DNA of 63,205 bases from Nitrospira sp. CR1.3 (GTDB lineage Bacteria; Nitrospirota; Nitrospiria; Nitrospirales; Nitrospiraceae): contig WIAH01000020.1 of assembly GCA_014055525.1 (NCBI GenBank), positions 1 to 63,205 on the forward strand, written 5' to 3'. The notes beneath the pieces were generated by a model. That model ran no database searches. It was not told the origin of the DNA and saw only the letters and a program-made list of their open reading frames with translations. Both the position numbers and the translations under genes were made by a program. Below are positions 61,269 to 62,869 of this stretch, in pieces (position 1 is the stretch's first letter; every line of letters starts with the position of its first letter).

Positions 61269-62033
61269 TTAGTGCGCCCGCGAGGCTGCGAGTGTTCTGC
61301 GTGATTTGTCCGTCTTTGGTTTCACTGTCTTGGGCATCTCGTCCCATGTTCGTCCATCTAGCGTCCGGCCCGCCTTGGTCTTAAAGACGCCGCCCCACTG
61401 TTTGAAAAAGAAGGGAACCTTTGCTGAAATGCATTGCGCACGTATTTCACGGACCCATTCCGGTTTCATAAGTCGAGAACGAGGCCCAGACTCTCCACCC
61501 ACAATGACCCAATCTATACCTTCCAGATCAAGATGCGGTAAAGGACCCAATAGAGGCTCAAGTGAAAGAAACTTGACTCTCGCCCCTGTCCGCTTCAGAT
61601 GGTCAATGCGCTGAACGTAATCTTCGCTCTCGACACTCACACCCATCCACACGTTATCTGACCACGGAAGTTCTCTATCTACCTCTACAAGCCGATCTGC
61701 TCGTTTTGTCAGTATCTGAAACTCGTGTTGTGGCGTTGCGCGCATTACAGCGAAGACTTTTCTAATGAAGTCAATAGGAACATCTCTATGAAACAAATCG
61801 CTCATTGAATTCACGAAGATCACTCTCGACTTTTTCCATCCAAGTGGTACGTCCAAAGATTCAGGGTGAAGTCTGAGGACGAATCCATCTTTGTATTGCC
61901 TTGTGCCGGCCGCTTGCAGCCGTAGAGCCAACCGTTCGGCATAACAGTTCTTACAACCTGGACTGATCTTGTCGCATCCGGTCACAGGATTCCATGTCGC
62001 CTCTGTCCATTCAATCTTTGAAAGGCCCGCCAC
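61269..62033 (-). CDS. DUF5131 / Gp37-Gp68-like three-Cys-motif protein
   Basis: The 254-residue protein begins IEWTEATWNPVTGCDKISPG and KNCYAE: cysteines at 20, 27 and 30 form the three-Cys motif (C-X6-C-X2-C). The rest (IFVNSMSDLFHRDVP, FQILTKRADRL, NVWMGVSVESEDYVQRID, KFLSLEPLLGPLP, WVIVGGESGP) matches the phage Gp37/Gp68 family, DUF5131, which is thought to have a radical-SAM-like barrel and to occur beside TcmP. It sits eight bases after the TcmP-like gene, same strand. Base composition is lower in GC than the flanks. The activity is unknown. Confidence 0.85.
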   Translation of the reverse strand: MAGLSKIEWTEATWNPVTGCDKISPGCKNCYAERLALRLQAAGTRQYKDGFVLRLHPESLDVPLGWKKSRVIFVNSMSDLFHRDVPIDFIRKVFAVMRATPQHEFQILTKRADRLVEVDRELPWSDNVWMGVSVESEDYVQRIDHLKRTGARVKFLSLEPLLGPLPHLDLEGIDWVIVGGESGPRSRLMKPEWVREIRAQCISAKVPFFFKQWGGVFKTKAGRTLDGRTWDEMPKTVKPKTDKSRRTLAASRAH

Positions 62034-62041
62034 CTGAACCT

Positions 62042-62869
62042 CTAAAGCCTTTTCTCATGCTTCTTGAAAATATCCTTGACGATCTCGAGGGCAACTGGCT
62101 TCGGTGAGGCAAAAAAGAGATAGTAGACAACGGCGTCTCGTGAGTTTCGCATGGCGAGGGGTTTAGACACATGCTTGAATCCGGCTTCACACAGTAACCG
62201 TTTCCTGAAAGCATCTGTAACGGCTTGATTGTTCGTCTTTTCTTCGTAGCCAAACAAATTGCCTGCCGTGGAGTATGCAGCCGATTTCCAGCTTTCATCC
62301 CCCCAGAAACGAGTCATCCGCTCAGACTGTTCGGGAGGAACAGACTGAGGATCGTGCTTGAGCACATTCATATTCATATCCATGATTGGAAAGTTCAGAA
62401 AGATCTCAATGGATTTCATCTGTCCAGCAGTATAGATCACCTTCCAATCAAGATGCAGCCCATAGGGATCGAGGAGACAGAGTCCACGTCGGTAGTGTTT
62501 GAATTGCACTTGAGGAAATACTTCTTCGACAAGCACCTGGTTGCAGTCGCCTTCATGAACGAATACATTTGCTCGTTTCTGAGCCGCTTGTTGTAACGAC
62601 TCAACTCGAGCCTGGTTGATGTCAATAAAATGATACTCCGGAAATGGAGGATTTACTTTCAGAGCATTCAGTGGCGAACCGGGCACGAACTCTTTCGTTG
62701 AGCGAGACAGATGAACCCCGGCTCCTGCAAACGCATCGATGTAAACATGGTGCAGTTTCGGCTTCTTCAGGGAAGAAAGTATTTTGGAGTATGCCTGTGC
62801 GTACTCTCGTACGATATCGAGTTTTACTTCCGACCAAGGACCGATCTCATCAATAGCTGAAGCCGCCAC
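62042..62869 (-). CDS. tcmP: three-Cys-motif partner protein (TcmP-like)
   Basis: A 275-residue protein matching the three-Cys-motif partner family: IDEIGPWSEVKLDIVREYAQ at the start, HHVYIDAFAGAGVHLSRST, YHFIDINQARVESLQ, and GLCLLDPYGLHLDWKVI. The DAFAGAG, FIDIN and DPYG elements resemble methyltransferase motifs I, II and IV, so SAM binding is plausible. It precedes the DUF5131 gene by eight bases and is very likely its functional partner. The cassette lies beside a repeat copy and appears acquired. The role is not known; a nucleic-acid modification or defence function is inference. Confidence 0.85.
   Translation of the reverse strand: MAASAIDEIGPWSEVKLDIVREYAQAYSKILSSLKKPKLHHVYIDAFAGAGVHLSRSTKEFVPGSPLNALKVNPPFPEYHFIDINQARVESLQQAAQKRANVFVHEGDCNQVLVEEVFPQVQFKHYRRGLCLLDPYGLHLDWKVIYTAGQMKSIEIFLNFPIMDMNMNVLKHDPQSVPPEQSERMTRFWGDESWKSAAYSTAGNLFGYEEKTNNQAVTDAFRKRLLCEAGFKHVSKPLAMRNSRDAVVYYLFFASPKPVALEIVKDIFKKHEKRL

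Follow-up and report, generated by a model that had tools for sequence, protein, structure and literature searches.

The window analysed here, a stretch of 63,205 nucleotides from contig WIAH01000020.1 of Nitrospira sp. CR1.3, carries a two-gene cassette which encodes the three-Cys-motif partner protein TcmP and a DUF5131 protein (Table 1) and belongs to the kind that PADLOC already catalogues as candidate defence system PDC-M41. We tentatively propose, with a probability of roughly 0.45, that the two proteins form a two-subunit enzyme, with DUF5131 as radical S-adenosylmethionine (SAM) catalyst and TcmP as the subunit holding the nucleic acid, and that the cassette acts as a transferable anti-phage module. 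TcmP would bind nucleic acid, presumably DNA rather than RNA, and open a base or lesion site; DUF5131 would cleave SAM and perform radical chemistry on the base or lesion held by TcmP, whereby invading DNA would be made unusable or host DNA would be kept usable during the attack. The expected outcome would be protection against phage, and for the window copy we lean towards defence with moderate confidence. The pair is widespread and has been named for its cysteines alone. Short of an exhaustive search, we know of no validated defence system that uses radical chemistry on nucleobases; such defence or repair chemistry would be new to validated systems if the proposal is true.

The first-pass annotation, made from the letters of the DNA, had assigned both proteins to families, and the profile searches support it: TcmP scored 204.5 bits against TIGR04474 (E = 2.7e-60, curated cut-off 53) and DUF5131 scored 340 bits against PF07505 (E = 1e-101, gathering cut-off 28.9). 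Coordinates, common strand and the spacing of 8 bases had likewise been given correctly. Component A of PDC-M41 matched TcmP with an E-value of 8.8e-77 and component B matched DUF5131 with 1.2e-120, and the window pair has the adjacent two-gene layout of this system. The likeness to PDC-M30 is uneven, as its B component resembles DUF5131 strongly (1.4e-116) and its A component resembles TcmP weakly (8.2e-8, residues 8-165). In PMC10855318 the PDC entries are described as putative guilt-by-embedding candidates which are not experimentally validated, and a survey of 100 Pseudomonas aeruginosa strains is reported in which 32 carried PDC-M30 and 68.8% of these carriers resisted phage, a correlation. 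In the open-licence literature no mention of DUF5131, PF07505 or PDC-M41 was found, whereas three papers mention the three-Cys-motif partner and another three, taken together, mention Gp37Gp68 or PDC-M30.

The C-X6-C-X2-C motif described earlier is present in the DUF5131 protein as C20, C27 and C30, followed by GGESG at residues 179-183. The three cysteines are invariant in 24 of 24 sequences, and the motif was found in all 46 non-repeated homologues, a set to which the window copy, itself bearing the motif, does not belong. These constant residues could hold a 4Fe-4S cluster and bind SAM, although their spacing is unlike the common CX3CX2C. Besides the match to PF07505, the GP88 profile remained below its cut-off, TIGR04471 (radical SAM mobile pair A) reached 88 of 355 bits, and the radical SAM profile PF04055 did not exceed its cut-off; because of the latter we name the protein radical-SAM-like, a label taken from the cysteines, the fold and an intermediate family. 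The predicted structure of a DUF5131 homologue, not of the window protein, has a radical-SAM fold, and spore photoproduct lyase (SPL) was the sole radical-SAM enzyme recognised among the best 50 matches listed; other radical-SAM folds may also apply. The intermediate family is a PA0069-like protein, which also occurs as a partner of TcmP: its alignment with the DUF5131 profile spans the cysteines (E = 2.6e-5, probability 75), and its profile also aligned with that of SPL-like partners (E = 8e-6). The suggested grouping of DUF5131 with radical-SAM proteins of the SPL type rests on this family and on the fold. SPL itself (PF20903) has CX3CX2C where DUF5131 has CX6CX2C; no significant match of the window protein to PF20903 or TIGR04070, the SPL profiles, was obtained, and neither single-sequence nor profile search against the PDB gave a real match for DUF5131.

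For TcmP, for which the annotation had reported methyltransferase-like motifs, a Rossmann methyltransferase fold was predicted, with motif I, DAFAGAG (residues 45-51), and motif IV, DPYG (residues 134-137). The folds closest to the model are RlmJ, the 23S rRNA A2030 N6-methyltransferase, and Trm1, which acts on tRNA guanosine G26. By single sequence the similarity to RlmJ was marginal (E = 0.012), and the TcmP family profile matched nothing in the PDB, RlmJ included. DPPY is the defining catalytic motif of RlmJ; it is absent from TcmP, which has DPYG in the window copy and, across the family, DP followed by varied residues. The TcmP motif was counted in 45 of 62 non-repeated proteins, compared with 46 of 46 for the DUF5131 cysteines (the window pair stands outside both sets and has both features). 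Since the catalytic motif drifts while the cysteines stay constant, TcmP may serve mainly for substrate recognition, methylation being dispensable; the variation of motif IV disfavours TcmP as active base methyltransferase for the main reaction, although it may still be one.

The pairing of the two families, asserted as established in the annotation, was examined in 295 Nitrospirota genomes with 40 TcmP and 62 DUF5131 places above cut-off, where genes within 1 kb were regarded as neighbours. DUF5131 lay beside TcmP in 29 of the 40 places, which excludes that the genes occur as unlinked genes only. Among the remaining 11, eight have another radical-SAM gene adjoining (split in L077), two are cut by a contig end, and one is a truncated TcmP without partner; a radical-SAM gene thus adjoins 37 of the 38 assessable TcmP genes. 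DUF5131 appears as the freer partner, because TcmP is near only 29 of its 62 places. A set of 26 TcmP loci, four of them identical with places in the first sample, comprised 18 with DUF5131, six with other radical-SAM genes, one with none and one that was cut. With the joined window proteins as query, natural fusions were found in both orders, 44 with DUF5131 first and nine with TcmP first, 45 of them with a length of at least 480 amino acids; seven of the nine TcmP-first fusions are shorter and possibly partial or frameshift artefacts, and P0121 and P0132 are full length.

Where DUF5131 is lacking, TcmP is followed either by an SPL-type protein (L015, L024, L025, L069, L070) or by a Radical_SAM/PA0069/Rv2578c-type protein (L018, L019, L021, L073-L076, split in L077); family scans were made for L015, L018 and L024, and the others were assigned by similarity to these. 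The PA0069-like partner scored 45.6 of 410 bits against TIGR04470 (radical SAM mobile pair B), so that its likeness to this mobile pair, as that of DUF5131 to component A, stays below cut-off. TcmPs with 71-78% identity pair with either the SPL or the PA0069 type, and the nearest DUF5131-paired TcmP compared is 59% identical to them. A TcmP tree, built by a quick method with 55 of 63 rows labelled and some long branches, required 13 partner-state changes among five states of type and orientation, fewer than the mean of 23.2 in shuffles and more than the four that would suffice had each state arisen a single time. The TcmP partner is therefore exchangeable among radical-SAM types, and has been exchanged repeatedly. 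This leads to a testable idea of one constant binder with several radical-SAM catalysts, which, if true, would explain the occurrence of such genes beside restriction enzymes, a phage repressor and in the mycobacterial recA cluster. In its widest form, which we consider speculative and on balance unlikely, TcmP would be the constant nucleic-acid-holding subunit of modular immune enzymes whose catalytic half is swapped among three SPL-type radical-SAM lineages, bacteria would defend themselves by radical reactions on nucleobases, and SOS and translesion operons would have recruited this chassis for repair purposes.

For the neighbourhood analysis, the surroundings of 51 pairs were searched for same-strand genes not more than 100 bases away; 34 pairs had such genes, 71 in total, of which 43 adjoin a pair directly. 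Pfam was run on 32 of these 43, and the sorting into defence and repair was made by ourselves, with no control for this count. Defence-type neighbours occurred at ten of the 51 pairs (L002, L004, L008, L010, L015, L018, L075, L076, L084, L108), and those at three further pairs were ambiguous (a helicase in L069, a deaminase in L093, an ATPase in L096). Beyond this count, Nostoc has BREX-1 genes in the vicinity of TcmP together with a radical-SAM gene, and Abi genes lie near the TcmP locus of Leisingera. An Agrobacterium plasmid (L212:7989-10965) carries two convergent tcmP genes, one adjoining a DUF5131 gene, with DUF1837, a DEAD/DEAH helicase and a CHAT protein nearby; DUF1837 and the helicase are presumably Hachiman-like. 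The tcmP gene and the immunity-repressor gene overlap in the Gordonia phage PantheRoc, a position typical of prophage-borne defence. The Sinorhizobium meliloti TcmP SMa2243 is tabled beside the Hna defence helicase among NolR-responsive genes in PMC12445080. In L089:1839-5201 a Cas9-like gene, recognised by eye, is located near a TcmP-DUF5131 pair.

Several observations weigh against the proposed anti-phage enzyme. In a PADLOC comparison within the same genomes (proteins of at least 200 amino acids in the middle 10 kb, control coordinates chosen by hand), 75 proteins from 20 pair regions matched 75 models and 106 proteins from 20 other regions matched 126, the best 25 of each being listed as families without their member proteins; the control regions include type I restriction genes. 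The count of co-occurrence with defence islands suggested by the annotation yielded defence-type neighbours, while an enrichment over other regions of the same genomes is not established. DUF5131 stands away from TcmP in 33 of its 62 places and may work alone. Its fold was taken from a homologue, and direct profile comparison with the SPL-type partners was not significant (E = 0.12). The substrates of RlmJ and Trm1 are RNAs and not DNA, the TcmPs closest to the window copy retain DPYG, and a two-domain model reached a pTM (predicted template modelling score) of 0.53, at which the domain arrangement is not confident. No biochemical or phage test of the pair was found in the open-licence literature; tests may exist elsewhere. 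Finally, repair genes are operonic neighbours at four of the 51 pairs, and in L078, outside this count, LexA is encoded two genes before TcmP. A phage-defence role stays conjectural, as it was in the annotation; the pair is a PADLOC candidate and is also met in DNA-repair contexts.

These contexts argue for a module of DNA-damage repair, in which TcmP would bind damaged DNA, a swappable radical-SAM subunit would reverse or process a base lesion in the fashion of SPL, and DNA breakage in defence islands would account for the presence of the genes at such sites. The four neighbours are MutY downstream of the pair in L006, RuvA in L083, PolIV in a tcmP-DUF5131-PolIV arrangement in L095, and PolIV and DnaE in L024. 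The latter, a betaproteobacterial locus (L024:8624-15239), has the operon PolIV - tcmP - SPL-like radical SAM - DnaE, a translesion-type cassette. The best radical-SAM fold match of the DUF5131 homologue, among the 50 listed, is a DNA-repair enzyme. For mycobacteria, BCG_2748c is presumably the counterpart of Rv2735c, and Rv2734 presumably a DUF5131 protein. PMC7387457 annotates BCG_2748c with a three-Cys-motif partner domain; Rv2734, Rv2735c, recX and recA of M. tuberculosis appear as one cluster among mitomycin C-changed genes in PMC5057432, and Rv2735c as partly co-transcribed with recA-recX in PMC3062782. SplB is reported, largely from comparative genomics, as SOS-regulated in PMC3323433 and PMC8565304.

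On the other side, operonic repair genes are fewer than defence genes (4 versus 10 of 51 pairs), and the patchy distribution of TcmP fits accessory genes. Canonical LexA boxes were found upstream of two of 68 loci but not of the window pair and the three orthologous ones, and upstream of these four pairs the palindrome GTAACC-N3-GGTTAC, the likely operator of this lineage's LexA-like genes as judged from its placement, does not occur either; because of this lack of a LexA-type box, repair becomes less probable for the window copy. Furthermore, Cys140 of SPL is the hydrogen donor, and its place is taken by Glu169 in the SPL-type partner of L015, a Glu invariant in five aligned SPL-type partners; this comparison covers the SPL-type partners and not DUF5131 itself. 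Overall we judge a repair module unlikely. By eye, a palindrome of the type mentioned lies over or just before the start of LexA-like genes in several genomes (L161-L164, L169-L171, L176), and the genome of the window encodes two LexA-like genes.

Still less support is seen for a self-marking DNA modification, in which both proteins would make a modified host base and linked restriction enzymes would cut DNA without it. Operonic genes of Eco57I type, for an N6/N4 methylase with ResIII, for ResIII and for MmeI (L008, L018, L075, L076, L084, L108) and three phage DUF5131 copies in operons also holding a DNA methyltransferase are consistent with it. At five of the six restriction-modification loci, however, the neighbour has a methylase domain of its own, no restriction gene adjoins the window pair on its sequenced side, and the catalytic motif of TcmP is not constant, which makes this explanation improbable. 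The three phage copies (L208, L209, L210) derive from actinobacterial phages and stand without annotated TcmP in operons with DNA methyltransferase and replication genes, two of which also contain a RuvC-like resolvase; a DNA-modification role of these copies is possible.

If TcmP were an active rRNA or tRNA base methyltransferase like RlmJ and Trm1, its closest folds, the radical-SAM partner could add a second step and translation would be affected. This RNA modification appears quite improbable, as the DPPY of RlmJ is replaced and variable in TcmP, enzymes of DNA but none of the ribosome or of tRNA occur among the 32 scanned neighbours, and the alternative partners of TcmP are of the SPL type. 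That the genes merely hitch-hike without joint function, their adjacency being left over from island traffic, would fit the 33 solitary DUF5131 places and the phage records (161 for DUF5131 versus 5 for TcmP) but is very improbable in the light of the fusions in both orders, the radical-SAM gene beside nearly every TcmP gene and the repeated exchange of its type.

As regards the transferable character of the proposed anti-phage module, TcmP was found in 16 of the 147 genomes of the family (Nitrospiraceae), in agreement with the accessory nature claimed for the cassette. Acetobacter pasteurianus carries a copy of the pair on a plasmid. The two genes have GC contents of 0.475 and 0.501 (0.487 for the pair), compared with 0.599 for aat, and a scan in 1.6-kb stretches at steps of 400 bases gave 155 values, all higher than that of the pair, so that the lower GC noted earlier marks the minimum of the window. 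The 3' slot of aat was read in 23 genomes (L138-L155, i.e., 18, plus L082, L085, L001, L039 and the window; the aat-bearing G006, G020 and G059 were left out). It is empty in nine, with a peptidase (five) or a rhodanese-like gene (four), named by eye, as next core gene; it holds the window-type pair in four (window, L082, L085 and, with a differing far flank, L001), another pair subtype with DUF5131 first and opposite orientation in L039, and other cargo in nine, of which L140 and L144 have, by eye, Mrr-like restriction genes and L152 has a toxin-antitoxin pair. Within the family, the region 3' of aat qualifies as an accessory-gene hot spot. Compared with the annotation, the same pair in this slot of three other genomes, the different subtype in a fourth, the grouping with SPL-type radical-SAM proteins and the exchangeable partner are new.

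The pairs of the four aat slots group in a single clade with full support and share a low GC content (0.47-0.50 versus 0.58-0.64 for aat), and a single recent transfer in its simple form was rejected on these grounds. Protein identity among the four loci amounts to 81.5-88.4% for tcmP and 70.1-74.5% for aat, which fits both a transfer among relatives and a stronger constraint. The low GC and the aat slot hence support the transfer suggested by the annotation, with the pair as hot-spot cargo rather than as the product of one recent event.

Table 1. Features of the tcmP-DUF5131 locus in the window
Feature	Position	Strand	Remarks
tcmP (three-Cys-motif partner protein)	62869-62042	-	275 aa, GTG start, first gene of pair
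DUF5131 gene (phage Gp37/Gp68 family)	62033-61269	-	254 aa, GTG start, second gene
Intergenic gap tcmP/DUF5131	62034-62041	-	8 bases; AGAGG Shine-Dalgarno-like stretch overlapping tcmP 3' end
Promoter region of pair	62870-62905	-	TTGACG at 62904-62899
aat (leucyl/phenylalanyl-tRNA--protein transferase)	60536-61234	+	left flank, convergent with pair; TIGR00667 E = 6.9e-65
Dispersed repeat region	62930-63170		right flank of pair, at contig end; 27 own-genome matches, fold z -2.47

Translation of the two genes is probably coupled, as the AGAGG stretch over the tcmP end suggests. In an alignment of the upstream regions of the four orthologous pairs the TTGACG hexamer is identical in all, and its proximity to the GTG start of tcmP points to a short or absent leader. 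Both flanks, aat and the dispersed repeat, were identified as the annotation had them; the latter is regarded as dispersed because of its 27 matches, its own place included, and when its single strand was folded it surpassed 197 of 200 shuffled versions. For four copies of the repeat (C15, C35, C26, C31) the distance to a contig end is 35 bases, and the assembly therefore probably breaks at this repeat.
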